Assembly: GCF_003515065.1 (NCBI RefSeq)
Contig: NZ_QXGH01000021.1
Span: forward strand, 62,001-126,000
Direction: 5' to 3'
Source of the DNA: Nocardioides immobilis
GTDB taxonomy: Bacteria > Actinomycetota > Actinomycetes > Propionibacteriales > Nocardioidaceae
DNA length: 64,000 nt
Numbering within the stretch: position 1 is the stretch's first letter; the number at the start of each line of letters is the position of its first letter. Positions 830 to 31,579 of the stretch are shown piece after piece. A program made the translations under genes and the position numbers. The notes under the pieces are model-generated. The model made no database searches. It saw only the letters and a program-made list of their open reading frames with translations, and was not told the origin of the DNA.

Positions 830-1065
830 GCGGCACCACCTGCCGCCGAAGCGTCAGTTGCAGGCGTGCGGTCCCGACCTGCCCAGAATCCACTCACGAT
901 CCCGGCCCGCTGGACGTACGCCTCGCACTCCGCCCGTACTCGGCAGGCATCGCAGACGATGCACATCGCCTTACCGGCCGCCGGTGACAGATCTCGAGGA
1001 TCCGCGATCCACGGCAGGGTCCGAAAGTGTGCGCAGAGCGCCCTCATCCTCCAGGTCTCACTCAT
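826..1065 (-). CDS. WhiB-like iron-sulfur regulator within the AICE operon
   Basis: 79 residues. The cysteine arrangement fits the WhiB/Wbl family: C11, then CIVC at about 35-38 and C44, followed by a G-[VI]-x-G-F-W-A-G-like turn (IVSGFWAGRDR) and a basic tail. Wbl proteins bind a [4Fe-4S] cluster and act with sigma factors or DNA in actinobacteria. It sits between the traSA-like and rep genes with four-base overlaps on both sides, so it is an operon member. It is at the short end for the family. A role controlling transfer or replication of the element is inferred from position only. Confidence 0.75.
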   Translation of the reverse strand: MSETWRMRALCAHFRTLPWIADPRDLSPAAGKAMCIVCDACRVRAECEAYVQRAGIVSGFWAGRDRTPATDASAAGGAA

Positions 1066-2420
1066 GACGCCACCTCGCTCGAGCGCGTCCGCCGAGGGCG
1101 GTCCTGCGGGTCGGGGTCCGGCACAACAATCGGGACCGCCGCGGATGTAGCGAATCGATCAGCGACCTCCCGGATGGCGCGATCGGAAGCGAAGCCGGCT
1201 CTGACGCGGATGGGATGACCGCCTTCCTCGGGTAGCACGTAGCCGGTACCGGGCATGTCCCGAGGGATCCGATGGCAGTGCGCCCCGCTGAGCACAGCTG
1301 TCTCGCCGAGCACCATCGACGTCTCGGACAGGTCCTTGAGGCGCAGTCCGACCATCTGAGTGAACAGTCCGCGGGCGGGGATGACCTCCTTGCGGGGGTC
1401 CTGCAGGCAGGCGAAGACCATGAAGCCCGGTGCTCGACCCTGGGAGCACAGCAGGTTGATCGCTGTCTCGGCCCGCCGCTGCAGATCGCGCTCAGGGCAG
1501 TACGCAGTCAGCGCGGCCAGCTCGTCAATCATCACCACGTGCAGCGGCTCATCGACGCTCGGAACGTGCGACCGCACCTGGCCGGCGTACCGCTGGGCTC
1601 GCTCGCGCATCCAGCCGACCAACAACTCGAGCACGGCGACCGCCTCCGCAGCGTTGGTGGCTGTCGTCGTGAAAAGGGTTCTGCCCATCAGGACCTCCAT
1701 TCCGCCTTTGAGGTCGATGCCGTGCAGCTGGACCCGGCCGGAGTGGACCGCGGGGGCGAGTCCAAAGGCCAACGACCAGAAGACCGATCCCTTGCCCGAG
1801 CCCGACGACCCGGCGACGAGGGTGTGGGGGCCGATCGCCAGCCGCCACTCCAGACCGTCCTCGCGCCGGCCCATGGGAACCGCGTCCAGCTGCTCCAGCG
1901 CAGCGGCCGGCCGGGCGTCGAAGGACAGCCGCAGCGGATCGCCGACGGTGAAGGTCAACAGGACGTCGCGTGTGCCGCATGCCTCGACTCGGACCCGGGA
2001 TGCTCCGACACCGCTGCGAACTGCCTCGGCTGCGCCCTCGAAGTCACTGATCGTCTGGCCAAGCGCCGGGCGGACTTGCAACTCGACGTGAGGGAAGGCG
2101 ACGCGGCTCCGTCGTACTGCCGGCACCTCAATCTCCGCGAGACCGCAACGCGCACAGACCGTCTCCCAGTCGCGCACGATGGCCCTCCGCCAGATCCATC
2201 CGCGAAGGCAACCGCTCGCACGGCCGAAGGATGCCGGGTGCCACCAGGACCAAATGAGCGCGCCGGTGGCCATAAGAGTGACGGCCGCCGTCGGGGCGAG
2301 GCTCCACGGCCAGGCCAGCCACGCCGCACCCAGCAGGACGCACGCGTAGCCGGCGCAGCGGCCGATGAATTCCAGTGCCCCAGGGAGAGTCACGGCTCGG
2401 TCCACGGTGTCGACCGTCAT
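1062..2420 (-). CDS. FtsK/SpoIIIE-type conjugal DNA translocase (TraSA-like)
   Basis: 452 residues. Two hydrophobic segments lie at about 23-59, followed by a cytoplasmic ATPase domain with Walker A (GSSGSGKG, about 204-211) and Walker B (LHVVMIDEL, about 293-301). This is the layout of TraSA/TraB proteins, which as a single hexameric pump move double-stranded element DNA between mycelial cells without a relaxase. Its end overlaps the whiB-like gene by four bases and it starts three bases after the stop of the 88-residue gene. Length and motif spacing are normal, so it appears intact. It is the only FtsK-type transfer gene here; a separate VirB4-type module lies at 23.6-30.9 kb. Confidence 0.88.
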   Translation of the reverse strand: MTVDTVDRAVTLPGALEFIGRCAGYACVLLGAAWLAWPWSLAPTAAVTLMATGALIWSWWHPASFGRASGCLRGWIWRRAIVRDWETVCARCGLAEIEVPAVRRSRVAFPHVELQVRPALGQTISDFEGAAEAVRSGVGASRVRVEACGTRDVLLTFTVGDPLRLSFDARPAAALEQLDAVPMGRREDGLEWRLAIGPHTLVAGSSGSGKGSVFWSLAFGLAPAVHSGRVQLHGIDLKGGMEVLMGRTLFTTTATNAAEAVAVLELLVGWMRERAQRYAGQVRSHVPSVDEPLHVVMIDELAALTAYCPERDLQRRAETAINLLCSQGRAPGFMVFACLQDPRKEVIPARGLFTQMVGLRLKDLSETSMVLGETAVLSGAHCHRIPRDMPGTGYVLPEEGGHPIRVRAGFASDRAIREVADRFATSAAVPIVVPDPDPQDRPRRTRSSEVAS

Positions 2421-9366: not shown

Positions 9367-9717
9367 TCACTTTCGGTAGCGCCTGGCGCGCTTCATGCGT
9401 CCGACCGTGCTCCAGCCTGGAGGCAAGGCTGGCACGGTGGACGGCTCAGCTGGACGCCTCATCAACCAGATGCCGTCGAATTCCTCCGGCTGCCAATCGT
9501 GCCGGTGGCAGCGATACTCCAGCCCCTGCTCGTTGCCGGACGAATGAACCATGATGGCGTTTCCCTCCTTGCACAGTTCAAGCACGCGGAGCCACATCAG
9601 CTCACGCACGCGAGCGGTCACCTGCCCCACGAAGACGCCTGGGCTGATCTCCATCAACCACCGGGTCAGATGCCCGCGTAGGCCGGCCGGACAAGCCGTG
9701 AGCACTAGGACTACCAC
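9367..9717 (-). CDS. cas2: Cas2e, spacer-acquisition subunit
   Basis: 116 residues beginning at a GTG at 9717. The start MVVLVLTACPAGLRGHLTRWL and the following region (FVGQVTARVRELMWLRV; HRHDWQPEEFDGIWLM) are typical of the Cas2e family. Cas2e forms the structural core of the Cas1-Cas2 integrase that inserts new spacers. The start overlaps the cas1 end by seven bases. It is the last gene of the cas operon and lies beside the array leader. Confidence 0.95.
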   Translation of the reverse strand: MVVLVLTACPAGLRGHLTRWLMEISPGVFVGQVTARVRELMWLRVLELCKEGNAIMVHSSGNEQGLEYRCHRHDWQPEEFDGIWLMRRPAEPSTVPALPPGWSTVGRMKRARRYRK

Positions 9718-13199: not shown

Positions 13200-13840
13200 G
13201 GGGTTTCTCCTGTCGGGTCGGTGGTCGCCGCTTCGGCGTTCAGTTGGTGTGAGCGGCCGGCGTCGTTGGTGGGACGGTGGTAGTCACGGGTCCAGCGCAT
13301 CCGGACGGCGTGGATACCCTCGGGGTATTGCATGTTGTAGAGGTCACGAGCCAGGGCGCCGTAGTCGAGGGCAATCCGCTCGCCCCGGAGCTGAGTGACC
13401 AGACCACGCAAGTACTGGAGCCCGGCGCCGATGTCGTTCGACCTAGTCAGCGCCCGAAAGCGCCGCTCGACGCCCTTGCTATCGGTGGTCGCTGCAAGAC
13501 GTGCTACGGATCGACCGAGGGTGTGACCGCGGCCCTGCCGGTGCATGCCGGCATCTCTCCTCGATTGTTGGTGGGTCGCGAAGAGGGTCAGTGCTGCCAC
13601 GGCCGCGAACTCGGCCTCGCTGGGCTCGTCGCCCGCCCCCAGCAACTGCTCGGGCATGCCTTCGAAGATGTCCCAGGCGTCGGGACTGAGGTGTCGCCCG
13701 GCGGTTAAGGCTCGTCGCAGCCTGGCTAGCTTGGCGCCGGCATCGGGGCGGTCGGCCAGGTATCCCGACTGGAGCGCGGCGGCGGTGCGGCCGACGTAGA
13801 GCTCGAGGGTGTCGATCCTCGTTGACGTGTCGGTGGTCAT
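13196..13840 (-). CDS. cse2: Cse2 (CasB), small Cascade subunit
   Basis: 214 residues. Basic and mostly helical, with the Cse2 features ARLAATTDSKGVERRFRALTRS and LRGERIALDYGALARDLYNMQ. Two copies form the belly of Cascade and stabilise the R-loop. It overlaps both neighbours by four bases. Position between cse1 and cas7 is the standard I-E order. Confidence 0.94.
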   Translation of the reverse strand: MTTDTSTRIDTLELYVGRTAAALQSGYLADRPDAGAKLARLRRALTAGRHLSPDAWDIFEGMPEQLLGAGDEPSEAEFAAVAALTLFATHQQSRRDAGMHRQGRGHTLGRSVARLAATTDSKGVERRFRALTRSNDIGAGLQYLRGLVTQLRGERIALDYGALARDLYNMQYPEGIHAVRMRWTRDYHRPTNDAGRSHQLNAEAATTDPTGETP

Positions 13841-15459: not shown

Positions 15460-18248
15460 GGGCGGTCCTCTCGGACGGAGGTCAGTCCTTGGTCGAGGTC
15501 GTAGTGGAGGGCGAAGTTGCCGACGGTGGCGCGCCAGGACTCATCGAGATGCAGCACCAGCTGGCCTACGAGCCACGGGGACTGTTGCCAGCCTTCGTAG
15601 GCGTTGGCCTCCAAGGCGGCGAGCGTGGCGTCGAAGGCCTGTGGGGAGGCGGTCATGGACATCGGGAGCCGGACCGTCGTCGCGGCGAGTGCCCGCGCTA
15701 GTCCCGGATCCGGGGGGCTCAACGCGGTCGGGATGTGGCGGCCCGCATGAGGGCTCTCGTCAGCGATAAACCTGACTTCCCCTCCGATCCGCTGAGTCAC
15801 GACCACCTCGATGCCGTCGTCGCTGTCGCGGACCCGGGCCGATCCTTGGGAGCGCCCGTCCTCGGCCTCCGTTGAGGAGTCCTGCAACCAGCCGACCAGG
15901 GAGCCTTCAAGTTCTCGGACGCCACGCATCCGGAAGATGTCGGCACGGATGCGGGCCTCGGCAAGCTCGGCGCGATAGGTCGCGTCGGCCCGGTCGGCGG
16001 CCTCGCGCCACGACTCGGGAACCGGCGGCACGGTCGCGTAGGCGCCCTCGATGAGCGTGCGGATCTCGCTGGGCAGGGCGATGACAGTGCGGCCGTTCGG
16101 GCTGAGGCTGAGCACTCCCGCGGATCGGTACAGCCGACTCAGCCCGTAGACCGCGCGGGAGGCCCGTCCAGGCGTGGGCACTCCGCTGGCGTCCCACTCG
16201 TCGATGCCCGTCAGTACTACTTGAGGGGTACGCAGCCGGGGTGGACGCTCTGCCTCCCCGGCGCCACGTGGGTGGCGGTGCAGCCGGCCGATCCGTTGCA
16301 GCACTAGGTCGACCGGGGCCAGGTCGGTGACCATCGCGTCGAAGTCGACGTCGAGCGACTGCTCCAACACCTGGGTGCCGACCACGATCCGCCGTGCTGG
16401 CCGATGGTCTGCATCGGGCCCCAGTTCGACGCGCAGGAGTGCTTCGCGGCTCGCACGGTGGGTCGCGATGAAACGGGAGTGGTGCAGCACCACCACATCT
16501 CCGAAGCATTCACGCAGGTGAGCGGCGGTCTTCTGCGCCCGGCCGACGGTATTGCGGATCACCGCCACGCAGCCGCCTTCCACCAGCCAGCCGCCGAGCA
16601 GCCCGGTCAGCGTGTCCAGGTTGTCGTCGATGACGCGTACGTCCACCGAGTGCGTCGTCGCTTGCGCGCCGGCTCCTCGAGCGGCAGTGCCGTCCGCGGT
16701 CACGGTCGTGACCAAGGGATAGGCGAGGTCGTCGGGCAGCGGCTCGGCCGGGAGTCCGAGTCCGCGCCGGTAGGCGTCGGCCAGCTCCTGACGCTGGGCG
16801 CTAGGGAGCGTGGCCGAGAGCAGCAGCACCGGCACGCCGTACGCCGCCAGCCACTCCAGCACGCGGACGAGGAACATCCTCATGAAGTCGTCAGCCGCGT
16901 GCACCTCATCGATCACCACCACCTTGCCGGCGAAAGCAAGGTGGCGCAGCGCTGCATGTTTGGCCTGCAGCGCCATGAACAGCAGTTGGTCGATGGTGCC
17001 GACGACCATGTTGGCCAGCACGCCCTTCTTACGCCCGGTCAGCCAGGCGAGGACCTGGGCCTCGACCTTTGCGTCGGCTGTGCGTCCGGCTTCCTCGTCG
17101 TGCACATCGACGGCCCGGCTCCGCTCGATCAAGCCACGGAAGTCGTCGTTCAACCCGGCCTTGCCGTGCGCCAGGTAGGCGCTCGTGGCGCCGTGGCCGT
17201 CGAGGTGCTCCACCCACTCCAGGACTCTGGCGAACATGCCGTCCGAGGTGGCCATCGTCGGCAGGCCGACAAACACGCCACCGCAGTCGAAGCGCTGCGC
17301 GAGAGTTTCAGCGGCGAGCAGCGCAGCCTCGGTCTTGCCGGTCCCCATTCCTGACTCGATGACCACCAGCGGCGGCGAGGAACAGCCGCGGATGGCCTCG
17401 ACGACCAGGCGCTGCATGGGTCGGACCTGGGCGTCCCGCAGCCGGGGGAACCGCTGGAGGAGGTGCGCTGAGACGTCGTCGGGCGGTGCCTGCGGGTGCC
17501 ACGGCGGGGGCAGCCGGAGTGCGTCCCAGGCGAGGCCGGCGCGCTGATCGCCATCGGTTGCGTCGAACGGGAACAGGTCGGTGTTGCTCGCAAGCCAGTC
17601 GGAGACGATCACGGCGCCGGTCAGGATCGCCTGCGCGGTTGTCGGTAGCGGGCATCGAGCCCACGCGGACAGGTGCCGATCGGCGCCGGTCCAGGCGGCC
17701 ATTTCGTCCAGGATCTCCCACTGCACCTCGTGCCAGCGGCCGCGTCCGACCAGGTGCGGCCGGTCCTCGAGCCAGTCCAGCTTGGCGATCGTCGGCGGTA
17801 CGCCATGGTGACCGCCTACGATCACCGCATACGTCGTGGCGGTCTTCCATGAAGCCTCGTACCGGTCCTCCAGCCAGCGGCCGAGGACGACGTGGCCGAC
17901 CAATCCGTGCGGGGCCTTGCCGAAGTCCGTCACGTCGAGCGGCTCGACGAGCCCGCGTTCGCACATCCGATCGGCGAGCGGTGGAACCTTGGACGCAAAC
18001 GGCGGGCTGCACTTGGCCACGTCGTGGCTGCCCGCCAGCCATGTCAGCAGGACCTTTCCGTCGCGTGCATCAGGGGGAAGGGCGTCCTCGATCGTGCGCT
18101 TGGTGCGTGCCGGCAGCCAGTCCCACACGAGGGATCCCACCGCTGCCGAGTCCTCGAGATGCTGTACCAACGGCATCCACGCCTCGCCGTCGTATCCGGA
18201 CGATTTGCCCCAGACCGAGCGCGCCGCCTCGCTCCATGAATGGCCCAC
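15456..18248 (-). CDS. cas3: Cas3 nuclease-helicase
   Basis: 930 residues from a GTG at 18248 with a strong AGGAGGT site upstream. N-terminal HD nuclease: H30, HD at 75-76 (AGSHDVAKCSP), H114/H119 and HH at 147-148. Superfamily 2 helicase: Walker A SGMGTGKT at about 299-306, DEVH at about 447-450 and SATLPS further on. Cas3 is recruited by Cascade and degrades the displaced target strand. All key residues are present. It is the first gene of a tightly coupled eight-gene operon. Confidence 0.97.
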   Translation of the reverse strand: MGHSWSEAARSVWGKSSGYDGEAWMPLVQHLEDSAAVGSLVWDWLPARTKRTIEDALPPDARDGKVLLTWLAGSHDVAKCSPPFASKVPPLADRMCERGLVEPLDVTDFGKAPHGLVGHVVLGRWLEDRYEASWKTATTYAVIVGGHHGVPPTIAKLDWLEDRPHLVGRGRWHEVQWEILDEMAAWTGADRHLSAWARCPLPTTAQAILTGAVIVSDWLASNTDLFPFDATDGDQRAGLAWDALRLPPPWHPQAPPDDVSAHLLQRFPRLRDAQVRPMQRLVVEAIRGCSSPPLVVIESGMGTGKTEAALLAAETLAQRFDCGGVFVGLPTMATSDGMFARVLEWVEHLDGHGATSAYLAHGKAGLNDDFRGLIERSRAVDVHDEEAGRTADAKVEAQVLAWLTGRKKGVLANMVVGTIDQLLFMALQAKHAALRHLAFAGKVVVIDEVHAADDFMRMFLVRVLEWLAAYGVPVLLLSATLPSAQRQELADAYRRGLGLPAEPLPDDLAYPLVTTVTADGTAARGAGAQATTHSVDVRVIDDNLDTLTGLLGGWLVEGGCVAVIRNTVGRAQKTAAHLRECFGDVVVLHHSRFIATHRASREALLRVELGPDADHRPARRIVVGTQVLEQSLDVDFDAMVTDLAPVDLVLQRIGRLHRHPRGAGEAERPPRLRTPQVVLTGIDEWDASGVPTPGRASRAVYGLSRLYRSAGVLSLSPNGRTVIALPSEIRTLIEGAYATVPPVPESWREAADRADATYRAELAEARIRADIFRMRGVRELEGSLVGWLQDSSTEAEDGRSQGSARVRDSDDGIEVVVTQRIGGEVRFIADESPHAGRHIPTALSPPDPGLARALAATTVRLPMSMTASPQAFDATLAALEANAYEGWQQSPWLVGQLVLHLDESWRATVGNFALHYDLDQGLTSVREDRP

Positions 18249-18915: not shown

Positions 18916-20841
18916 CTAGCTCACGCGACGGCGCGCACCTGACCATGGACGATCATTGAGGTCTGCCCGCCACCGCGTCGCGAACTTGTCGACGGACTCG
19001 CGATTGAGGGAAGGCTCCCGACCGGTCACTGGCCGTTGCTTGAAGGCTCCACGGCGGAGATACCTCGTCACGGTGTATCTGTGGCAGCCGATTAACTCGG
19101 CCGCTGTCGTGATGGAGATCCATTCCGCGCTCGCACGCTGATCGGCCCGCTCGGCGGGCGAGAGTGGCGGAATGTAGGTCCTCCCGAACTGCTCGACGGA
19201 CTCCCTGGATAATGAGGCGTAGGATCGGTGGGCTGAGCGCCGCTGAATGTCGCCCCTCTTCGCTGCATTCCGGATGGTCATAATCGGCACCGTGAGCAGC
19301 TCGGCCGCCGCTCGGCTGGACATCCATGGGCTGGGTTCGGGGATGTACGCGTATGCCGCGTCGAGGGACACACCGTCCGGGACGACGGCTACAGCTGTGT
19401 CGCGCCACGTGAGAGTGACGCGGTCTTCGCGGAACGCGCGTCCGCCGCGTCGGCGCAGACGGGCGATCGTAAGTTTGTCGATCTGGTCGGCCATGATCTG
19501 CTGGCGCTGCTCATCGTTGACGCACATCCGCCAGACCTCGTCGAGAGAGCGGCTGCTACGCACAAGCTTCTCTACCGGACGGACCTTGGCGCGCCGCTTG
19601 AGCGAGTTGCGAGCAGTCTTGAGGGCTGCGACCTTCGTTGCGATGGCTTCGACGTCGGCGTCCTCGCCCGTCAGTTCCAGGGCGACCGTGCGCAGGTCCG
19701 AGTCGATCTGGGCCAGCTTGATCGAAGTGGTCGCGTCGTTGGGTACGGTCCACATAAGCCGGTAGGTCGGCCGTCGGCCCCGTTCAGAGAGCAGCCGGCC
19801 TTCGATGTAGGTCAGCAGACGGTGACGGTTCACCGAGGTTAAGCAATGCCGGCACTCAAAATAGGGCACCTTCTTGCTCGTACTGCGAACCATCGAGCGG
19901 CCACATTCGGCGCACGTGATGATCCCCGAAAGAAGGATCGACGTCTTGGCGCGGAGGTTGTTCTTGATCGCCGAATGGTGCCCCTTGTGCGTCAGCGCGT
20001 ACACCAGCGCGTCGTGCTCGCCGGTGCTGATGATGGCGTCGCCGCCGATCACGGGGTTGCCATCCTCGCCGCGCAGCACCTCCGGCCCGCGTCCGGTGCC
20101 GCCTCGTCCTGGGTTGCATGGGTACATGCCGGCCAGGACGGGGTTTTGTAGCAGGTTGTTGACCATCGAGAAGTGCCAGTGGTGGGGCCTGGAACGTGGA
20201 TAGGCCGGCGGCGGCGCATCAGAAGCGTCCAGCCACTGCACGATCGAGTAAATCGTGTCGCCGCGAAGTGCTCGGTCGGCCATCTCGCGCGTCCACGGAG
20301 CTCGCTGCGGGTCCTGAGCCCGTACCCGGCCAGGTCCGTTCGGGTTGGGGATGATCCGGAAGCCATAGGGCTGTAGACCGCCCGGCGAGCGACCATTTGC
20401 GAGCAAGTAGGCCCTGGCGGCTGCCTGGCGTTCGGAGGTAGCCGCAGTCTCGAGCTCGCCGAACACCGCCAGCATCTGCGCGAAGGCGCGGCCCTCACTG
20501 GTAGTCAGGTCGAGGCTTTGCTCAACGCAGACGATCGCGGCACCCCGTCGTTGGAGCTCCTCATCAACCTGGAGGAAGTCCATAACGCGGCGGGCGAGCC
20601 GATCGACCTTCCAGACGATGACCGCGTCGAAGGGTTGGGGGGAGTCCGTAAGTGCTTTCCAGCCGCCACGGTCTTTGGGCTTTACGTGGGTTGCCGACAC
20701 TCCTCGGTCGACGTACTCACCGACCACCTTCCAACGACGCGCTGCGGCGTACTGGCGTCCAGATTCAAGCTGCCTGGCCACCGAGACGGACTGTTCGGTG
20801 GCGACGGAGATGCGGGCGTAGAGAACGGCGCTTCGTGACAT
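18916..20841 (-). CDS. Large serine recombinase with double C-terminal HTH extension
   Basis: 641 residues from the ATG at 20841 (MSRSAVLYARIS); the frame continues upstream but this is the conserved start. Resolvase domain: catalytic S12 in YARIS, then DRGVSATHVKPKDRGGW and VWKVDRLARRVMDFL. A recombinase domain follows, then a zinc ribbon (CAECGRSM...CRHC) and a long helical segment. The last 130 or so residues hold two excisionase/MerR-like helix-turn-helix segments (SSRAAAELLTVPIMTIRNAA; ITTAAELIGCHRYTVTRYL), an unusual addition. Such enzymes integrate and excise phages or ICEs. It probably belonged to an element nested here; no att pair is obvious. Confidence 0.9.
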   Translation of the reverse strand: MSRSAVLYARISVATEQSVSVARQLESGRQYAAARRWKVVGEYVDRGVSATHVKPKDRGGWKALTDSPQPFDAVIVWKVDRLARRVMDFLQVDEELQRRGAAIVCVEQSLDLTTSEGRAFAQMLAVFGELETAATSERQAAARAYLLANGRSPGGLQPYGFRIIPNPNGPGRVRAQDPQRAPWTREMADRALRGDTIYSIVQWLDASDAPPPAYPRSRPHHWHFSMVNNLLQNPVLAGMYPCNPGRGGTGRGPEVLRGEDGNPVIGGDAIISTGEHDALVYALTHKGHHSAIKNNLRAKTSILLSGIITCAECGRSMVRSTSKKVPYFECRHCLTSVNRHRLLTYIEGRLLSERGRRPTYRLMWTVPNDATTSIKLAQIDSDLRTVALELTGEDADVEAIATKVAALKTARNSLKRRAKVRPVEKLVRSSRSLDEVWRMCVNDEQRQQIMADQIDKLTIARLRRRGGRAFREDRVTLTWRDTAVAVVPDGVSLDAAYAYIPEPSPWMSSRAAAELLTVPIMTIRNAAKRGDIQRRSAHRSYASLSRESVEQFGRTYIPPLSPAERADQRASAEWISITTAAELIGCHRYTVTRYLRRGAFKQRPVTGREPSLNRESVDKFATRWRADLNDRPWSGARRRVS

Positions 20842-21699
20842 GGACCGAGCGTAGGAAGGTCTCCCGATCCTAGATAGACGACCAGACGAGGGAAGCCGCG
20901 GGCATGGCCCTCCCTCGCACTCGCAGTACGGCACGTGGGGGGTTAACCGCTGCCGCCGGTCGAGGCGCCCGCTAAGGCTAGGGCGCTGCTTGCCCTCCGG
21001 CCGGTGGCTCACTTGGCCCTGACGCTTCCATCACTCGAAGCGCGTGGACCTGGACGCCCGCGATCTTCGCGGCCTCGGACCACGACGCCCAGTCGCCGTA
21101 GTCGCGTTGCCGAGCCACCGGCTGTTCGTACGAGAAGCCGCGCTACCCAGCCGGTGCATCTTCCCGAGGCGCGCCACGCGGGCGGAACCTTGGTTCGCCA
21201 GCGCAGACGGTTGTCGATGGCTCCGCGATGGAGGGCCGCCCTCAACGCGCAGTACCGTGTGCAGTTGCCGGATTGACCTCTATGACATCAAGGGCGCCGG
21301 CTGCGCCGGCGCCGCCGCGGGGCCCCGCGCTCCGGGCATGCGGCCTAGCGGCCGGTCCCTGCGCGCACCCCACGGCAGCGCGAGGCGACTCACCGCTTCG
21401 AGCTCGCAAGAACCCGATCGACCGGAGTTGTCAGCGCTTCGACCAACTCGGGCCCGTTGTCGCCGCGACGACTGCGGCCGCTGGGCCCGGAGAAGGCCCA
21501 TGGGATGGAAGTGTTTGAGCGGGCGGACGGACCTGATGTCGGGAAGGCGTCTGCGTCGGTGTGCGTGCCCGCGGGCTCGCGGCGTTGCCGGCACTCTTCA
21601 ACAGATTCGGCGCGAGGCCGCACGCGAGAACTGCAGCCGCGATACGTTGTCACACCACAGCAGCCACGCCAAGACGATAAGCCGGAAGGACGGTAGGGC
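20842..21699. other. Intergenic region with possible gene debris
   Basis: About 860 bases without a convincing intact gene. On the minus strand around 20980-21130 a frame reads DYGDWASWSEAAKIAGVQVHALRV before running to a stop. It resembles an excisionase-like helix-turn-helix fragment, but it is not preceded by an open gene. The attP of the serine recombinase could also lie here. Confidence 0.35.
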
Positions 21700-23591: not shown

Positions 23592-23867
23592 TCACTCGAC
23601 CCAGACCAGGTGGGCGGGGTATGGCTCGACCCGTGGCGGTTCCGAAGTGAACATCCAGCGGTAGTAGTCCTCCTCGCTGGCGATGTCGACGCTGTCTTTG
23701 GCGCCGTTGACGTGGATCTCGCTGATGGCGCGCATGTCGTAGATGAAGCCTTCGGGGGTGGAGAGGATGACTCGCTTTCCCCACAGCGTGGGCTCGCCTC
23801 TCGACGGTCGGGGCTGACGGGCTGGTGGGGCGCCGAAGTACGGGAGGGGTCGGGGTCGCTCGGTCAT
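23592..23867 (-). CDS. Small hypothetical protein at end of conjugation operon (91 aa)
   Basis: 91 residues with a Pro/Arg-rich N-terminus, then a compact strand-helix region (RVILSTPEGFIYDMRAISEI; DSVDIASEEDYYRWMF). No family is recognised. Its ATG overlaps the stop of the M23-nuclease gene by four bases, so it is coupled to it. It is the last gene of the leftward module. Confidence 0.55.
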   Translation of the reverse strand: MTERPRPLPYFGAPPARQPRPSRGEPTLWGKRVILSTPEGFIYDMRAISEIHVNGAKDSVDIASEEDYYRWMFTSEPPRVEPYPAHLVWVE

Positions 23868-25759
23868 CGCGTTGGACCTCCTGAGGCGGCGGAAACGTCG
23901 ATGGCGCGGGCGACGACGAAGGGGTGGTCGCTAATGCTTCCGTGGACCCCGCGTCGTACGGCCAGATGCCCGACCCAGGTGGTTCGGGTGGAGCCGAAGA
24001 TCCAGTCGATCCCGGGATTCCGCGGCGGGTTGCAGCCGCCGGCATGTGATCCCCCGGCAGAGGCTGCCAGGGTTCCCTGGGCGGTCAGGGTGCAGAACGC
24101 CTCTTCTCGCTCGTTGAAGTCCCCCATCAGGAAGACGGGGAGTTCGTAGTGCTCGATGATCGCGTTGGCCGTGGCGAGCTCGCGGCGTGCGGCCTGGTCG
24201 CGGAACCGTTCGTTGCCAGGGTGCCAGCGCGTGCTCGCCGGGTTGTGGACGTTCAAGAAGCTCGCGTCCTGGCCGGTGACCAGGTTGCGGAGCCGAACGA
24301 TCGGCATCTGTGTTGGCTTGCCGTTGAAGTACGGGACGGTGAGGACGTCGGCGCTGACCAGGGCCCAACGGTCTCGGCGCCAGGCGATGGAGTTGGCGGG
24401 CCCGTCGGGCGGTGAGTAGACCGCGTAGCGGTCGCCGGCCCGAGCGAGCAGTGCTCGTCGCTGAGGGTGTTGGAACTCTTGGAGTCCGACGACGTCGACG
24501 TCGTAGGCTTCGAGCAGGGCAATCGCCCCGCGGATGCGCTGGTGGCTGGGCGCGTATCCGGGCTTGTTCCCGCCGGGAGCGGTGTGGGAGTGGCCGAGCA
24601 CGTTGAAGCTGGCGACCACGTAGCTGGTTGTGTGGGAGGACACGGGGGGTTCGACCTGGTCGCCCGCGTGAGTTCGGAGCCAGGCGCTGGGGTCGATGCT
24701 GTCCTCGTAAATGGATCCTCCGCGGGGGTGGACCTCGAAGTGGAGGTGGCATCCGGTGGAGTTGCCCAGGTCTCCCACCTCGCCGAGCTGGTCGCCCGCG
24801 CGCACGGGTTGTCCGTCGACAACGTTCAGCGACTGCATGTGGGCGTACCAGGTCGTCAGCCGGCCTGGACCGGTGCTGACCTGCACCAGCCAGCGCCCCG
24901 ACCACGCCTCATCGGTCTTCACGATCACGGTCCCGCCGTGGGCAGCGCGAACTGGTGTGCCGCACGCGGCCGAGAAGTCGGTCCCGGTGTGTCCCCGTGA
25001 CCATCGGCCACCCTGGGCCCCGAAGTTGTGGAGATCGGTAAACGCCGACGGGTTGCCGATGGGCGCCACGACGGAGCCTGGGGAGCCAGCCAGCTGGATG
25101 CAACCCGTGTCGTACGACGCTCCGGTCCACATCGCGTCTTGGACGCCGAAGCCGTCGAGAAGGTCCTCGGCGAGGACCTCGTCGTCGGCGTATGCGTCGG
25201 GGTAGGCGGATCGCTGCACGGCCTGGGCTGCATCCGTGACCGGCATGTCCTGCCAGTTCGGGACCTGGAGCAGGCGTTCGTAGAACTTCCGCGCCGAGGT
25301 GGCGGGGTCCATCAGCTCGCGCATGGAGCCCCACCAGGGCCACTGCTGTTGGAACACCCCGAGCGACCCGTGGTCGGTTCCGACGGCTTCGTGGGGGAGT
25401 TGGAGCGATCGTTCAATGCCCTGCTGGTCGGGCTTGAGGTCGTCCCCGCGGCCATCGTTCGCGTAGATCCGGAGCCCGGACTCTTGGTGGGCGGTGGCCA
25501 GGGCAATCAGCACACCCTGCCGGGGCACGCCCATCTGAGCGCCGACGGAGACGATCGTTGCCGCGGTCGCGAGCTGTTCCGGGCGCAGTCCCTCCACCGA
25601 CTCCACTTCATCCGGGGCTGCCGCGGTCGTGCCGCACCCAGTGGTCGTCGGCCCGCTCCGGCCACCTATCAGAACCATCACCATAAGCACGGCAGGCACG
25701 AACAGGATGCCGACACCGATGACCAGCGCGCCGGCCGCCAGTGGTCCTTTGCGACTCAT
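23864..25759 (-). CDS. Membrane-anchored cell-wall hydrolase fused to EEP nuclease-like domain
   Basis: 631 residues. One N-terminal membrane segment (about 9-32) is followed by a lysozyme/transglycosylase-like region with ATAHQESGL and GSLGVFQQQ. An M23 (LytM) peptidase domain with HTGTDFS, WYAHMQ and HLHFEVHP follows, all zinc and catalytic motifs present. Last comes a full endonuclease/exonuclease/phosphatase domain with SFNVLG, GLQEF, MGDFNE and SDHPFV. The first two parts would open peptidoglycan for a transfer channel. A DNase I-like domain outside the membrane is odd; it could act on DNA or on phosphoesters. It follows the trbL-like gene by 15 bases. Confidence 0.85.
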   Translation of the reverse strand: MSRKGPLAAGALVIGVGILFVPAVLMVMVLIGGRSGPTTTGCGTTAAAPDEVESVEGLRPEQLATAATIVSVGAQMGVPRQGVLIALATAHQESGLRIYANDGRGDDLKPDQQGIERSLQLPHEAVGTDHGSLGVFQQQWPWWGSMRELMDPATSARKFYERLLQVPNWQDMPVTDAAQAVQRSAYPDAYADDEVLAEDLLDGFGVQDAMWTGASYDTGCIQLAGSPGSVVAPIGNPSAFTDLHNFGAQGGRWSRGHTGTDFSAACGTPVRAAHGGTVIVKTDEAWSGRWLVQVSTGPGRLTTWYAHMQSLNVVDGQPVRAGDQLGEVGDLGNSTGCHLHFEVHPRGGSIYEDSIDPSAWLRTHAGDQVEPPVSSHTTSYVVASFNVLGHSHTAPGGNKPGYAPSHQRIRGAIALLEAYDVDVVGLQEFQHPQRRALLARAGDRYAVYSPPDGPANSIAWRRDRWALVSADVLTVPYFNGKPTQMPIVRLRNLVTGQDASFLNVHNPASTRWHPGNERFRDQAARRELATANAIIEHYELPVFLMGDFNEREEAFCTLTAQGTLAASAGGSHAGGCNPPRNPGIDWIFGSTRTTWVGHLAVRRGVHGSISDHPFVVARAIDVSAASGGPTR

Positions 25760-25774: not shown

Positions 25775-27793
25775 TCAGGCGGCGTCGTCAGTGTTGCCGG
25801 GGTTGGGGGTGGGTGGACGGTAGATCGGGTAGACCTCCTCCCCGTCGTGCCACTCAGGTTCGACGGGTGCTGGTGGCGGCGGCTCCGACCCTGGCCGCGC
25901 AACTCGGCCTGCTGGCAGCGCTCGCGGCATCTGCGCTGCGGGGGATGCGTCCAACGGTGCGGCTTCACGCCTGTGTTTCGCCTCGTACGCCGCTGACGAG
26001 CCAGCCTGGTGCGGACCCGGGTCCTGGGGTTTCGGACCTGGCCGTGGGGTCGGCTGAACCGGATCCGGTGCGTGGGTGGGACGGAGCGCCGACGGTGTCT
26101 GTGGGCTTGGGCTCTTCGCGGCGGGGCTGGGTGAGCCGGGTCGGGTTTCTGCTCGTTCCGGGGGACCTTTGGGCTGGTCGTCGTCGAGGACTTCGACGGC
26201 GGCCGCGCCGGCACCACCGCCGACAGCACTGGCGGCAGCGACCTTGGTCAACCGCCACGCCTCGGACTTGGCGCGCCGATAGGGGTCGGAGATCCCTCGG
26301 AACGGGTCGGTGTCGGGATTGACCATGGTGGTGAGCCGGCGGAACGGCTTGAGTGCCTGCCACATGATGAAGCTGAACAGCGGCATCAGGATGAGGCTCA
26401 ACCATGCCGGTGCGCCGCCGCCGGGGTGGAACAAGATGCCAAGGACCGCCACCGTCACGCCCGCGCCGATGCCGAAGATGATGGCGTTCACGACTGCAGC
26501 GGCCACGGTGCGACCGATCCCGGTGACCAAGCCTCGGGTGCTGGGGAACGCGCCGAGGACAGCAAAGGCCGGGAATAGCATCACAGCGAGCCGGACGATC
26601 AGGAAGCACCCGAGCATGAGCAGTGAGGACAGCAGCAGGAACGGCAGCGCTAGCAGGGTGGCCAGAGCGGTGAGGATGGCGTAGCCGACCCTGGTCTCGG
26701 ACCGGTTGCCGGTGAGGTTCTCGTATGCCTCGGGGTCCTCCTCCTTGATCTTGTCGGCGATCTCCTCTCAGTCCTCCTGCTTGCCCTCGATCAACTCCTC
26801 GGCCCGGTCGGGGTCCTCAGCGGCTTCTTCGGCCTCCCGCCAGGTCAGCGCTTGTGCCCTGAACAGGTCCGGCCCGTACTTGCGGGCCGTTTCGCTGTCG
26901 GGGTCGCCGAGCGTGCCGGCGAGCCAGGCGCGGTAGAGGATTGCCTCCTGCACGTGGGAGGAGACCGCGATCCCGGGATCGCTGTTGCTCCCCTCGCCGT
27001 CGAGTTGACCTACCACGGCCCCGAGCGTTCCGGTCACGGTCTCGTCCGCTGCGTTCCCGGCTTCAATGGGCCATCGGAAGATCGCGACCGCCACGATCAC
27101 GATGAACAGCGCCCAGCCGATCGCTGCGGTGGTGCTGGCCAGCGCCGAACGGCGAGCCTTGAAGATGACCAGCAGTCCGAGCAACGCCAGTACCGCCGGA
27201 ATCCATGAGGCGAACAGGCTTTCGTGGAGCGCGGTCGAGACCCGCTCCACCACCGGGTCGAAGGCGTCGAGGAAGGTCGGGTTGAACGCGACCTGGGTCA
27301 CCGATCCGGTCAACGCCGCCATCGCGATCGGCACTTGCATGATCCAGTTCGCCACCGCGGTTCCGATGACCGCGTCGGGACTGCGTACAGCATCGGGCCC
27401 GCAGCCGAGGTCGTAGGTGTGGTAGCGCAGACCGGCGAAGCCGTACTGCTCATAGATCGTGGTCGTGGCTCCAGGGCCGAAGGGGTCTTCAGCCGGTGGC
27501 AGCTCGTCTGGTGCGGTGTCGAAGAAGCCAGGGATCCCCTGCCCCGGCGAGACCGGAACGGGCGCCTCGTTGCAGTCCGGCATCGGCACCGCAGGCGCGG
27601 GACCCAACGGCTGGCCCGGCAGCAATGGCAATGGGATGTCCGACGGATCGGGCAGCCCCGGGATGTCCGGCAGGTTCGGGCCCGTTGGGTCGGGGTCCTT
27701 TGCATCGGCCGGTGGCGCGATCACTAGCACCACCAACGAGGTGACAACCAGGGTGAGTGTGGGGCGGAGCAGTGTCCGTAGCAGGGTTCTCAT
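25775..27793 (-). pseudogene. TrbL/VirB6-like channel protein, interrupted by in-frame TGA
   Basis: From the ATG at 27793 (MRTLLRTLLRPTLTLVV, a signal peptide) the frame runs 341 codons, hits TGA at 26768-26770 (after EGKQED), then continues in the same frame without another stop to 25775. The continuation begins EEIADKIKEEDPEAYENLTG and is coding-like, with four or so further membrane segments and a Pro-rich tail. A TGG-to-TGA change would explain it. Homologues are polytopic channel proteins of actinobacterial T4SS-like modules. The start overlaps the virB4-like stop by four bases. Unless read through, the product loses its C-terminal membrane half. Confidence 0.8.
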
Positions 27794-30318
27794 GCGACCT
27801 GTCCTCCCGTCACGACGGTCGGCTCGCGGTCCGGTTGGCGGCCCGCGGTGGTGTTGAGTGCTTCGAGTAGGGCTGGGTTGGCGGTGAGGTCGACGCAGAC
27901 CTTGTCCACGTGTCCGTCGACATCGCGCATGACGAACTCCCGCATCGCAGCCTCGCCCCGTCCCGAGGAGAGGGTGGCGAGTGCCCGCTCGTAGCCGACG
28001 TCCGTGGGCACCCGCAGCATCCGCAGACCGTCCCTGGCCGCCTCCTCGTCCTCGGTCCGGCCGACAAAGGCGGCGGACATGAAGTTCGCGACGTCCATGC
28101 CGAGCACGTCCGAGGGGTTCTGCGAGGACGCCAGCACGCAGGTGTTCCACTTGCGCGAGTCGCGGCCCAGCCGGGTGAACAGCGCGCGGCCGGCCGACCA
28201 CTCACCCAGGAAGTGGGTCTCGTCCAGGGCGACCAACTTCCGGTCTTGCATCGACCGTCCGTACACCGCGCGGGTGGCGTACCAGGAAGCCAGGTGCAAC
28301 AGCGGCACCGCAAGCTGCTCCGAGGTCGACCAGTGCTCGCGCGGCACCGACCGTGGCGGGAGCACCAGCCCCGGCATGGTCAGCACTGTCAGCGCCGAGT
28401 TGATCCGCGTCGCGCCCGGTTCCGCCTGGGGGAAGAACAACCGGGACAGCGGCAGTTCGGCCATGTCCCGCAGGTAGTTGGCGACCACCTGGCCATGGGG
28501 ATTGCCCTGCTTCTCCAGGTTGCCCACCACATCCCAAAGTGAGGCGTCCCGGTCTCCGCGTGTCGCGCGCACCGCGTCTGAGACGACCAGGGAGGTCTGC
28601 GGCATCGCATCCACCGATGGCGGCAGGAGCATCTTGATGACGTCCATCGCCAGGAGCTTGCGATCCTGCGCGGCGAGGACCTCGCCCTCCTGGAAGGCCT
28701 CCTCGCTGGTGAAGGACGCTCGGGCGGGTGCTGCAACGACTTCGAACGGGTTCAGCGTTCCGCTGGCTGCCGCGGTCAGGTCGAGGTGCTCGCTGTGTTC
28801 GGCGAGCTCAGGCAGCTCGGTGAGCCGAGCCAGCGGCCCGGACGGATCCAGCAGCACCGCGGGAATCCCACGCCGCACTGCGTCGTAGGTCACGAGCCCG
28901 AGCAGCACGCTCTTGCCCGCACCGAGGCCGCCGACCACCGGAACGAGGCCGGATGTCTCGCGGAGTTCGGTCGCGTAGTGGGTGTCGAACATGACCGCCC
29001 TGCGTGAGGAGCCAGCGGTGAACCCGATGTACGGGCCTTGGCGATCACCCAGCTGGCTCGAGGCGGCCGGCACACCAGCGGCGACATACAGGGCCGGCAG
29101 GCGGCGCCGGTAGGCCACAGTGGAGACCGGCTCGCCGGGGATGAACTCGCGCAGCAGCCCGTACTGGCCGCGAGGATGCTCGATGCTGACGCGGCGGGAC
29201 CGGAACGACGTGGTCACCCGACGTACCCGTTCCAGACATTCCTCCTCGCTCCGGCCCGCGACGGCCAGCCGGAACCAGCCGTGGATTCGGGCGGCGGTGA
29301 CATCGACACCTCGGGTCATCTGATCCTCGACCTGGCGGGCCTGGCGTGCCTGTCGATCCAGTGCCAGCGGTTCGTCGAGCTCGTGCTCGGCGTAGTGCCG
29401 CTGCATGTCCCGCACCACCAGCAGCTTGCGCTGGATCTCCTTGCGCGCCTCAGCGCCCGACAGGATCTCCATCTGGGCCGACCACTCAACGGGGAATGGG
29501 AGCCGGTCAGTGTGGGACAGCCACGGCTCGTGCCCGGGATCGGGTGCCTCGATCTCCTCCAGCCTGCCGACCGAGAGGACCGCAACGTGTCGTTCGATCG
29601 GATCACCAAGATCTCGACTCGTCACCCGGACGGTGCGTCCCAGTCGCGTGGTGTCGTGCTCGACGGCATCGGAGAAGCTGGACAGATCCTCCTCATCCCA
29701 CGACTGCTCGCCGGAGGCACACAGCCCGGTCGGCGCGGGAAGCCCGATACCGACAGACCGCCGCAGCAGCCACTCCATCTCCCGGGCCGTGGCGGGTCTG
29801 CCTTCCAGGCCCGGCAGCGCGACGGTCTCGGCGACCTGCTCCACCTTGGACAGCAATCGGGCGTGTTCGATGTTCCCCGGGCGACGCCAGATCGCCGCGA
29901 TCAGCCGGTGCGACGGCGCCCGGCTGGCGATTCGCACGCCGAGGAAGACCTGCTTCTCGGCCATCGTCTGGTAGCGCAGGTGCTTCTGCATCCCCACCAT
30001 GTGCTCGGTCCAGGGCTCCACCCCCGGCGTCTCCAGCGGGCTCGGGGTCAGCCCGTGGAGTCGTTTGGCCCACTCCGCAGCCGGATAGGGCCGTGAGGTG
30101 ACCCGCAGGTGCACCCGGTGGCCGGCCAGCCAGGCGAGACCGTCCGCGGCACCGTAGAGCAGTTGCTCGCGTTGCCGGTCGGAGCGGAACGCCCAACCGT
30201 GGGTCGGGAGCACGAACCAGGCCCAGACCTCGTTGGCGGTGAAGCACAGACTGTCGTCGATGTGACGTAGCGTCAGCCGGCCAGCTGTGGCCGGTGTTTC
30301 CCGAGACTTACGAGACAT
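27790..30318 (-). CDS. VirB4-like conjugation ATPase
   Basis: 842 residues. Walker A GGLGAGKS at 463-470 and a Walker B-like KLVALDETHFL about 220 residues later, then LASSQNPSD and a terminal arginine-rich region, as in VirB4/TraC/TcpF ATPases. No membrane segment is apparent. It powers assembly of, or transport through, a type IV secretion-like channel. It overlaps the small membrane-protein gene upstream by 11 bases and the trbL-like gene by four. It appears intact. Confidence 0.85.
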   Translation of the reverse strand: MSRKSRETPATAGRLTLRHIDDSLCFTANEVWAWFVLPTHGWAFRSDRQREQLLYGAADGLAWLAGHRVHLRVTSRPYPAAEWAKRLHGLTPSPLETPGVEPWTEHMVGMQKHLRYQTMAEKQVFLGVRIASRAPSHRLIAAIWRRPGNIEHARLLSKVEQVAETVALPGLEGRPATAREMEWLLRRSVGIGLPAPTGLCASGEQSWDEEDLSSFSDAVEHDTTRLGRTVRVTSRDLGDPIERHVAVLSVGRLEEIEAPDPGHEPWLSHTDRLPFPVEWSAQMEILSGAEARKEIQRKLLVVRDMQRHYAEHELDEPLALDRQARQARQVEDQMTRGVDVTAARIHGWFRLAVAGRSEEECLERVRRVTTSFRSRRVSIEHPRGQYGLLREFIPGEPVSTVAYRRRLPALYVAAGVPAASSQLGDRQGPYIGFTAGSSRRAVMFDTHYATELRETSGLVPVVGGLGAGKSVLLGLVTYDAVRRGIPAVLLDPSGPLARLTELPELAEHSEHLDLTAAASGTLNPFEVVAAPARASFTSEEAFQEGEVLAAQDRKLLAMDVIKMLLPPSVDAMPQTSLVVSDAVRATRGDRDASLWDVVGNLEKQGNPHGQVVANYLRDMAELPLSRLFFPQAEPGATRINSALTVLTMPGLVLPPRSVPREHWSTSEQLAVPLLHLASWYATRAVYGRSMQDRKLVALDETHFLGEWSAGRALFTRLGRDSRKWNTCVLASSQNPSDVLGMDVANFMSAAFVGRTEDEEAARDGLRMLRVPTDVGYERALATLSSGRGEAAMREFVMRDVDGHVDKVCVDLTANPALLEALNTTAGRQPDREPTVVTGGQVA

Positions 30319-30670
30319 TTCGCTCCCTCACTGAAACCGACGAGGCGCGCAACCGCATCGGTCGGTGGTTCTTCGGGGCACGGGGTGCGCGGAACTCGGC
30401 ACGTAGCAGCTCCCACACGGAGACCAGGGGTCGGTCATGGTCAATCACGCCAGTGAGGGCGTAGGTAGCAAGGATCGTGAGCACCAGCTCCCACACCGGC
30501 GGGACACTGACCCTCATCGGCGACACCGCCTCGACCAGCAGCACGCCGACGAACAGCACGACCCAGATGCCGTACGCCGAGTACCGCGCCGCCCACGGCA
30601 GCGTGAACCCTTGCGGGCCCAGCCACACCGCGTCGACCCGATACACCTCATCGTCCGGGCGGATCAACAT
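30308..30670 (-). CDS. Small membrane protein of conjugation module (PrgI/TcpE-like position)
   Basis: 120 residues with two membrane segments (YGIWVVLFVGVLLVEAV; VWELVLTILATYALTGV) and a basic tail (RAPRAPKNHRPMRLRAS). Position directly ahead of virB4 and size match PrgI/VirB3/TcpE-type components, but sequence alone does not prove it. It begins three bases after the stop of the pilin-like gene. Confidence 0.6.
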   Translation of the reverse strand: MLIRPDDEVYRVDAVWLGPQGFTLPWAARYSAYGIWVVLFVGVLLVEAVSPMRVSVPPVWELVLTILATYALTGVIDHDRPLVSVWELLRAEFRAPRAPKNHRPMRLRASSVSVRERNVS

Positions 30671-30673
30671 CGG

Positions 30674-30940
30674 TCACGACTCCTGGAACACGAAGTCGGC
30701 GATGTCTCCCGCGAACCCGTAGAAGAGCGCCGCGCCAGCGATGACGACACAGCCCAGCAGGATGTTCGTGACCGTCAACGCGTTCTGGCTCATCTGCCCC
30801 TTGCGGGCGCTCGCGATGATTCCGACCCCGACCACCAGCAACACGATGGGGATGATGTTCTGCACGCCCCACTCGACGATGCCGTCCGAGTTGAACTCCG
30901 GGGCCGCGGACACGAAGTTCGTCAACAGGTTGTTCATCAT
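30674..30940 (-). CDS. VirB2/TrbC-like small membrane protein
   Basis: 88 residues from the ATG at 30940; an adjacent ATG at 30937 is also possible. GGAAG lies five to ten bases upstream. Two membrane segments (IIPIVLLVVGVGIIASA; ALTVTNILLGCVVIAGAALF) with a short polar loop are the layout of VirB2/TrbC pilin-like proteins. It is the first gene of the leftward transfer operon. The assignment is by size, topology and position. Confidence 0.6.
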   Translation of the reverse strand: MMNNLLTNFVSAAPEFNSDGIVEWGVQNIIPIVLLVVGVGIIASARKGQMSQNALTVTNILLGCVVIAGAALFYGFAGDIADFVFQES

Positions 30941-31265
30941 GATCTTCCTCCCGTGAGAGCTCGCATGGGAGGCAAGACAGCCGGAGCCGCCTCTCCCGAG
31001 CGAGCGCGGACAATTCCGTTGAACTGCTGACAAAAACCGGACCACAGCACAACGCTGGGCACCAGTACGACATGGCGATCTGTGGATAAGTCCGCCCGCC
31101 GACCCGGTGCAGTTTCGGGACCCGGCAGCGTCCGGGCTGGAAGTGGCGGCGTAGCCACCCGGATAGCAACAGACCCGGATTCGAACAGACGCGACGGGAC
31201 CAGTGCGGCGCTGCCACCCACACCAGTCGGCCGGACAAGACGTGACCGGACGGGGAGGCCGAGCC

Positions 31266-31306
31266 TACGGATCAGAAGGTTTGGGGTTCGAATCCCTACG
31301 GGCGCG
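31266..31306 (+). repeat. attachment site: 3' part of tRNA-Arg(ACG)
   Basis: The sequence begins with a tRNA anticodon loop CTACGGA (ACG anticodon), then TCAGA (3' anticodon stem), AAGGTTT, the T-arm GGGGTTCGAATCCC and acceptor CGGGCGC plus discriminator G. The matching 5' half is absent: upstream bases cannot form the anticodon 5' stem or the GCGCCCG acceptor strand. Identity starting at the anticodon loop is the hallmark of tyrosine-integrase att sites in tRNA genes. I take it as the distal att of the element whose intact tRNA-Arg and integrase lie left of the window. Confidence 0.75.
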
Positions 31307-31579
31307 CAGATCGGATTCCGCGCATGACCTGCGAAAACAAGGTCCCGAGGGTCGCTTCCCCAGTGGGAGGCGGCCCTCTTCCGTCTCAAGAACCGGCCCA
31401 AGAACCCTCAGCGTTGCCGCTGTCGCGACGGGTCGGCTCGGGTCGCGTCCCCCGGCTGGGCGAGAGCCGACCTGCTGCACTCCGCTGCGTATGCGTCGCG
31501 AGTCATGTTCAGTGTCTGGCTCTGTTCAGTTTCCGTGAACGACGAGGTCGATTGAACGCGGCGACGGGTGGCGAAGGAG
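31307..31579. other. Intergenic flank right of the att-like site
   Basis: No gene seen. Short frames here lack ribosome sites. This is probably the junction with older chromosomal or mobile DNA. Confidence 0.5.

Follow-up and report, generated by a model that had tools for sequence, protein, structure and literature searches.

What could a phosphoesterase do at the end of a cell-wall hydrolase that belongs to a DNA-transfer operon? The question is raised by Nocardioides immobilis, in which we analyzed a stretch of 64,000 nucleotides (the window; contig NZ_QXGH01000021.1, positions 62,001 to 126,000) of the 6.5-Mb genome. The window holds most of a bounded integrative element with a type IV secretion system (T4SS) operon, and one gene of this operon encodes a membrane anchor, a GH184 muramidase-like domain, an M23 peptidase domain and an endonuclease/exonuclease/phosphatase (EEP) domain, with the active-site residues of all three enzyme domains intact. 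EEP domains recur in such hydrolases at other T4SS loci. An earlier note, made from the sequence alone, had pointed out a wall hydrolase fused to an EEP domain in a transfer operon, and this was borne out by a single frame of 631 aa, Pfam matches for M23 and EEP, and adjacent T4SS genes. The protein is laid out as follows.

23864..25759, minus strand: VirB1-like T4SS wall hydrolase, 631 aa, in the order membrane anchor, GH184, M23, EEP
25667..25738, minus strand: predicted membrane anchor, aa 8-31 (Kyte-Doolittle windows up to 2.95)
25145..25594, minus strand: GH184 muramidase-like domain, aa 56-205, with catalytic-type E93 and D129 (phmmer to 8b2h/8b2e)
24716..24994, minus strand: M23 (LytM) peptidase domain, aa 256-348, HxxxD and HxH intact (Pfam E 4.3e-24)
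23900..24622, minus strand: EEP phosphoesterase domain, aa 380-620, with eight catalytic-type residues and Cys556 and Cys576 (Pfam E 9.5e-14; AlphaFold2)

The open reading frame (ORF) begins with ATG and is uninterrupted by stops; its upstream neighbour ends at 25775, and the downstream gene overlaps it by 4 nt at 23864-23867. A chance ORF, or two separate proteins, a possibility already raised in the earlier note, was rejected because the frame is open, the GH184-M23-EEP fusion stays in frame in syntenic relatives, and there is no good internal start: aa 341-400 offer three GTG codons only, none of which has a convincing Shine-Dalgarno sequence by eye. The first enzyme domain had been called transglycosylase-like. 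It is indeed a wall-hydrolase domain, but of another type, and a transglycosylase or SLT identity was rejected since the matches were to GH184 instead: in a phmmer search of the PDB, it matched the fungal GH184 muramidases 8b2h (E 2.5e-21) and 8b2e (E 3.2e-16). E93 corresponds in position to the catalytic Glu41 of the fungal enzymes and D129 to their Asp66, as given in the part of the source cited here (PMC10394673), and this Glu and Asp are invariant in 12 of 12 alignment rows. By family-level similarity and possession of both acids, the domain is a GH184 member, and muramidase activity is predicted. The Peptidase_M23 match includes the zinc-motif residues H257, D261, H307, H338 and H340. The Exo_endo_phos match covers aa 383-612 and spans all 225 profile positions; N386, E428, H505, D547, N549, D585, D611 and H612 are present, invariant across an 8-row alignment, so that the EEP domain is as complete as had been claimed. 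Judged by its fold and its N, E, H, D-x-N, D and D-H residues, it belongs to the EEP superfamily. Hydropathy reveals one strong hydrophobic stretch, at about aa 8-31, and the six Cys residues make three possible pairs, around GH184 (42, 220), in M23 (266, 337) and in EEP (556, 576), which fits a location outside the membrane. From this topology and the possible Cys pairs, the enzyme domains are predicted to lie outside the membrane, in agreement with the earlier placement of the EEP domain.

The AlphaFold2 model of the EEP domain was confident (pLDDT 90.4, pTM 0.90). Among the matches listed, the nearest solved folds were 3mpr (Z 27.4), 3g6s (Z 25.9) and the mannosyl-6-phosphatase BT3783 (4c1r, Z 25.6), with further matches to TDP2 (Z 25.1), nocturnin (23.9), PDE12 (23.2) and neutral sphingomyelinase (8j2f, 23.1); the bacterial sphingomyelinases have the same fold at Z of about 20. 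The likeness to 3mpr, 3g6s, 4c1r, TDP2 and nocturnin extends over about 210-240 residues (Z 23-27), but the identity is about 20%, so the substrate cannot be transferred from them. We know of none of these structurally known EEP enzymes that is fused to a wall hydrolase. In profile alignments, the E, H, D-x-N, D and D-H motifs fall on those of 3g6s and 3mpr. The earlier description of the domain as DNase I-like finds support at the level of the EEP superfamily only: DNase I was not among the 50 matches listed in either structure comparison, although it is not thereby excluded.

Two of these folds bring substrates of their own into consideration. An enzyme of phospholipase or sphingomyelinase type acting on the membrane surface would share its fold with neutral sphingomyelinase and the bacterial sphingomyelinases. 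However, their Z scores lie below those of the glycan phosphatase and TDP2, and sphingomyelin is, to our knowledge, not known in these bacteria, so we regard this role as very unlikely. A TDP2-like EEP might act at the cell surface and free DNA of a tyrosine-linked pilot protein (Rep or relaxase), for instance to exclude incoming elements. TDP2 ranks with the best matches by fold and by profile, the profile alignment to it closes in a GDxN-x-R that both proteins have, and the element encodes a RepSA-type initiator. However, the sequence match to TDP2 is confined to the core that the superfamily has in common, and the predicted location of the domain, outside the membrane, does not suit most such tasks; such a function is highly improbable.

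The operons syntenic with that of the window show how the third domain varies. The same gene order was found at loci L038, L039, L042, L043 and L044 and, via a GH184 search, at L059, L064, L071 and L073 (L060, L067 and L070 are second copies of L044, L042 and L043); VirB4 is 73-79% identical in all 9 other syntenic loci. In the ten complete operons, the third domain belongs six times to the EEP lineage of the window (window, L038, L039, L042, L043 and L059), once to a different intact EEP, and three times lacks the catalytic residues. Within the window lineage, EEP is 46-54% identical to that of the window, GH184 61-70% and M23 64-68%. The intact EEP of the other lineage, in L044/L060, is 26% identical and occupies the same operon place. 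In L073, L064 and L071, a third domain stands in the same place with its catalytic residues gone, and Pfam calls no EEP in any of the three. The domain of L073 still matches the EEP profile (E 6e-9), with changes at N, E, H, D, N and the final H, and its AlphaFold2 model (pLDDT 75.5, pTM 0.81) matches TDP2 in Foldseek at E 3.1e-10, which identifies an EEP fold. The shorter domains of L064 and L071 fall below the EEP profile at E 1e-3 and are assigned by alignment to L073 (32% and 26% identity). Taken as pairwise counts at high dS, and thus rough, dN/dS is 0.39 for the third domain of L064/L071 (bootstrap 0.25-0.56) and 0.12 for the M23 domain of the same two proteins; a live EEP pair has 0.27 (bootstrap 0.19-0.38). 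The GH184-domain search as a whole, with an alignment drawn mostly from EEP-bearing proteins, gave 16 loci: seven with an intact EEP, three with a third domain devoid of catalytic residues, and six with no EEP.

These degenerate copies raise the possibility that the EEP fold serves mainly for binding or adhesion, to a recipient surface polymer or to DNA, its catalysis being ancestral and on the way to being lost. The EEP fold of the L073 domain and the constraint that remains on the L064/L071 domain agree with this, as do an EEP whose end is missing or out of frame in L144 and the second EEP of the plasmids pNOCA01 and pTC1, which lacks one Asp; an adhesin role has been proposed for inactive VirB1 homologues in the part of a T4SS review cited here (PMC12857230). 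However, 30 of the 34 T4SS-linked EEP domains besides that of the window have all eight residues, and an intact EEP of another lineage stands at the same operon place in L044. We consider a mainly binding role improbable. The four exceptions among the 34 are L073, L144, in which the end is absent or falls out of frame, and the second EEPs of the two plasmids pNOCA01 and pTC1, each with one Asp replaced.

EEP hydrolases were found not only in the syntenic operons but also in the SCO6880-type T4SS class. The earlier note had proposed to look for M23-EEP proteins across such elements, and the architecture does recur in mobile elements. In the SCO6880-type class and on plasmids, the EEP is N-terminal, internal or C-terminal, and the domain orders are as follows.

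GH184-M23-EEP: L040, L048 and L072
GH184-EEP-M23: L053 (same genome as the window) and L144
EEP-GH184-M23: L049
EEP-GH184-EEP-M23: L150-L153 and L162; plasmids pCHL and pA-N39
M23-GH184-EEP: L142
GH184-EEP: plasmid pB-N39
EEP-EEP-SLT plus a weak CHAP match below the cut-off: pNOCA01 (Nocardioides sp. JS614) and pTC1 (Paenarthrobacter aurescens TC1)

Pfam called an EEP in 8 of 10 proteins, the exceptions being L048 and the Rhodococcus protein L141, an EEP-less comparison; the EEP of L048 is assigned by a custom profile trained with L048 itself and by its eight residues. Both pNOCA01 and pTC1 are conjugative by PLSDB typing. Among 64 SCO6880-type loci of Nocardioidaceae, a hydrolase was detected in 42 and an EEP in 11 of these 42, with L150-L153 and L162 being close relatives of each other. 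In 40 loci, all from other families and hand-picked from the upper part of the matches listed, none of the 15 detected hydrolases had an EEP match at E<1. The loci in which no hydrolase was detected (22/64 and 25/40) are uninformative on EEP. Plasmid matches of three EEP lineages came from Nocardioidaceae and pTC1 only, the fourth lineage had no plasmid match, and the window EEP had no match in 50,697 phage records. By these counts, EEP-bearing hydrolases occur mostly in Nocardioidaceae. A related protein of Mycobacterium hubeiense (L068, 9797-11005) has GH184 fused to NlpC/P60, not M23, with a distant VirB4 match nearby.

How often the EEP was acquired was examined in a tree of 55 EEP rows, in which identical domains were entered once and domains of <170 aa or with a profile E above 1e-9 were left out, so that the dead domains are absent. 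T4SS EEPs fall in several places on this tree; their label needs five changes on it and 4-5 on the bootstrap trees, but well-supported branches force only one, and L048, L142 and L015 form long branches among the T4SS rows. The 24 rows labelled chromosomal include loci with M23-EEP or single EEP domains whose flanks were later checked and contained no VirB4 (27 loci). The different lineage at the same operon place in L044 and the varied positions of EEP within the proteins are a stronger argument than the tree, and they suggest that EEP has been recruited repeatedly into T4SS hydrolases.

The closest EEPs outside T4SS are chromosomal proteins, many of them with an N-terminal hydrophobic stretch. 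No VirB4 was found in 27 such loci within the 6-20 kb examined around each (only 6.3 kb for L249). Fifteen of these proteins, from 13 loci (L050, L051, L052 and L246-L255), are M23-EEP fusions with strong EEP profile matches, and in 15 of 15 the M23 domain is without HxxxD and HxH. The zinc motifs are present in the M23 domains of the EEP-bearing T4SS proteins that were inspected. The peptidase is thus dead outside T4SS and live within it, where the EEP may be alive or dead. Genes for surface polymers accompany the EEP in 12 of the 27 loci: sulfotransferase-like in nine (Pfam matches below the curated cut-off or absent), LicD in seven, PLD in six, LytR-CpsA-Psr (LCP) in five, and UDP-galactopyranose mutase in two. 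In an earlier count, polymer genes in 2.47 Mb of other sequence, mostly mobile-element loci and not random chromosome, occurred only in short loci with an EEP of their own. LicD is present as a single copy in each of five genomes, and in four of them the distance between it and an EEP is 20 bp, 21 bp, 1.6 kb and 8.2 kb. In the genome of the window, L056 (G000:C1:298000-312000) has two EEPs near PLD, UDP-galactopyranose mutase, PAP2, GT2 and LytR-CpsA-Psr genes. Loci of this kind, with EEP and polymer genes together, are L056, L242, L244, L245, L051, L258, L259 and L261, and their product may be a surface polymer of Nocardioidaceae, phosphorylated or sulfated, that is so far undescribed. Another chromosomal cluster (L241, 8120-12235) encodes proteins with two to three EEP domains per chain.

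LicD and LCP enzymes form phosphodiester links on surface glycans, a type of bond that an EEP can cleave. Considering this chemistry and the polymer genes beside the chromosomal EEPs, we tentatively suggest, at somewhat less than an even chance, that the window protein is a VirB1-like T4SS hydrolase enlarged by a third enzyme, the EEP of which cuts a phosphodiester-bearing wall or surface glycopolymer at the channel exit. The hydrolase would sit in the donor membrane by its anchor and expose its enzymes on the outer side; GH184 would cut the glycan strands, M23 the peptide cross-links, and EEP the phosphodiester bonds of a phosphorylated glycopolymer bound to the wall or surface. Genes of the LicD/LCP type, like those near the chromosomal EEPs, would make or decorate this glycopolymer, and the three enzymes would jointly open every polymer at the channel exit. 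In elements where catalysis has been lost, the EEP may only bind the polymer. The functions offered in the earlier note included the removal or processing of DNA and the cutting of an envelope phosphoester, and it is the last of these that fits the later evidence best, given the neighbours of the chromosomal cousins, the carriers with a dead M23 and the glycan phosphatase fold.

The alternative closest to the DNA-related functions is that the EEP is an extracellular nuclease at the channel, which would clear extracellular or competing dsDNA or matrix DNA while the transferred strand is shielded by the pilot protein and the channel. The full catalytic set of the EEP superfamily, the presence of TDP2, CCR4/CNOT6L and nocturnin among the nearest folds, and a T4SS machine that handles DNA all argue for it. 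However, DNA is universal, and yet EEP hydrolases are mostly confined to one family, with the distribution over loci and plasmids given above; the window EEP is without a match among the phages; and its closest non-T4SS homologues sit on dead M23 domains or, in 12 of 27 loci, beside polymer genes. We hold a nuclease to be unlikely, although it deserves serious attention. A surface glycopolymer is favored over DNA because all 15 non-T4SS M23 domains are dead, polymer genes occur in the 12 loci, and a mannosyl-6-phosphatase is among the nearest folds.

Several observations weigh against a catalytic role on a glycopolymer. The three syntenic operons without EEP catalytic residues imply that catalysis is inessential to the machine, and the dead copies show that it is dispensable in some elements. 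The nucleic acid and nucleotide enzymes TDP2, nocturnin and those of the CCR4 type score Z 25.1 to about 22, near the glycan phosphatase. No sought polymer gene was found in 15 of the 27 chromosomal EEP loci, and the sought genes had been chosen from some of these same 27; in 16 later loci (L246-L261), taken regardless of their neighbours, a polymer gene was present in 6. LicD and EEP are 1.6 Mb apart in genome G018, and four of the five LicD genomes are of one genus, the query having come from one of them, so they are not independent tests. Two EEP hydrolases come from outside Nocardioidaceae, namely those of pTC1 (Micrococcaceae) and L072, a metagenome-assembled genome of Mycobacterium. Finally, VirB6 is interrupted in the window, and this copy of the element may be unable to transfer now.

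A broader form of the glycopolymer reading, which we put forward with slightly less assurance, is that Nocardioidaceae use "three-polymer" wall drills made up of a muramidase, a peptidase and a recurrently recruited EEP specific for the glycopolymer of an uncharacterised LicD/LCP/sulfotransferase-like gene set. If so, the recruitment of EEP, its swapping between lineages and positions, and its decay would be a record of a non-peptidoglycan barrier to DNA transfer. A recurrent phosphoesterase module would mean that some donors face a barrier beyond peptidoglycan or handle surface DNA, and its use by mobile elements suggests that, in these bacteria, more than the usual wall mesh may have to be cut for DNA to be transferred. 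What a T4SS must cut in the actinobacterial envelope then becomes a direct question for enzyme assays; named plasmids of environmental bacteria such as pNOCA01 and pTC1 offer test systems for the role of EEP in transfer, and the chromosomal EEP-LicD-sulfotransferase-like loci point to a surface polymer.

We compared the window hydrolase with known systems. With its membrane anchor and wall-hydrolase domains, and its place directly behind the VirB6 and VirB4 genes of a T4SS operon, it is VirB1-like on sequence criteria. PrgK of pCF10, TraG of pIP501 and Orf14 of Tn916 likewise have membrane-anchored, extracellular wall-hydrolase domains and lie in transfer operons, and the domains named for VirB1 homologues in the cited part of the 2025 T4SS review are CHAP, SLT, MUR and LytM only (PMC12857230). 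PrgK includes a muramidase and LytM in the same source, and the window hydrolase differs from it by its GH184 muramidase and its EEP. It is thus a variant of the VirB1-like kind that, through the extra EEP, stands outside the CHAP, SLT, MUR and LytM classes described in that part of the review. The GH184 muramidases of Kionochaeta and Thermothielavioides (8b2e, 8b2h) resemble its first domain in sequence and in both active-site acids; however, the fungal enzymes occur alone or with an SH3-like domain, whereas the window GH184 is fused to M23 and EEP behind an anchor. Phage phi29 gp13 has a pair of muramidase-like and M23/LytM-like domains (both comparisons from the cited part of PMC10394673). 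Tape-measure proteins of Streptomyces phages (e.g. MT952852.1) match the window GH184-M23 pair at 33-35% identity. The phage proteins differ from the window hydrolase in having no EEP, as judged from the 50,697 phage records, none of which matched the window EEP. A phage-derived lysin as the source of the whole protein was rejected, since the window EEP is unmatched in the phage collection, though the tape measures share GH184-M23. No description of an EEP domain in a T4SS wall hydrolase was found in the titles and abstract beginnings of the literature searched; such proteins are already in annotated records as "endonuclease/exonuclease/phosphatase family protein" or "transglycosylase, SLT family".

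The other genes of the operon and the parts of the element in the window are as follows.

23592..23867, minus strand: 91-aa protein, next operon gene (50-65% identity in syntenic loci)
25775..27793, minus strand: VirB6-like membrane protein gene, named by its place, size and membrane stretches (in-frame stop 26768-26770; single open frame in relatives)
27790..30318, minus strand: VirB4-like ATPase (AAA_10), 842 aa (Pfam E 1.1e-26; 73-79% identity in syntenic loci)
30308..30670, minus strand: 120-aa membrane protein, putatively VirB3/PrgI-like by place and size (conserved in synteny)
30674..31045, minus strand: small membrane protein, putatively VirB2-like by place and size (synteny; the true start may be near 30940)
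31265..31312, plus strand: right attachment repeat, 48 bp, identical to the 3' end of a tRNA-Arg gene
1062..2420, minus strand: FtsK/SpoIIIE-type ATPase of the element (Pfam E 4.2e-12)

The element is about 33.8 kb long and extends from a tRNA-Arg(acg) gene 2.4 kb left of the window to the 48-bp repeat. Left of the window, it includes a tyrosine integrase and part of RepSA (E 5e-42); its cargo, besides integrase, RepSA and FtsK, is a type I-E CRISPR-Cas set and the T4SS operon. FtsK homologues 58 and 62% identical lie near the operons of L044 and L064, and in the related element of L077, RepSA (E 1.7e-91) occurs together with an integrase, FtsK and a GntR regulator. With an integrase, attachment repeats, a Rep protein and a DNA-transfer module, the element is by its gene content an integrative and conjugative element (ICE). 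Integrase, RepSA, FtsK and a tRNA attachment site are found likewise in actinomycete ICEs (AICEs) of the pSAM2 type, and VirB4 and VirB6 in the T4SS-type actinobacterial ICEs. FtsK-type and T4SS-type ICEs were counted separately in the cited part of PMC3218068; as annotated here, the window element joins the AICE maintenance genes RepSA and FtsK with a VirB4 T4SS operon.

The VirB6 frame is intact in nine relatives. A programmed frameshift, with two frames meeting at 26768, was rejected because these nine have one open frame there, and the window copy is accordingly interrupted.

The CRISPR-Cas set (8319-18248) encodes Cas3, Cse1, Cse2, a Cas7-type protein, Cas5, a Cas6e-type protein and Cas1, and its array has 17 repeats and 16 spacers of 33 nt. 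The spacers had no match longer than about 20 nt in 2.55 Mb of sequence compared, and none in phages. That they are aimed at rival elements was not supported: the plasmid matches are spread along the array and resemble repeat units of other arrays, and no protospacer was found. Besides the tyrosine integrase, the element encodes a large serine recombinase (18916-21012). Just outside the element, an ORF at 34045-37599 has seven IPT/TIG matches and a glycosyl hydrolase 16 domain.

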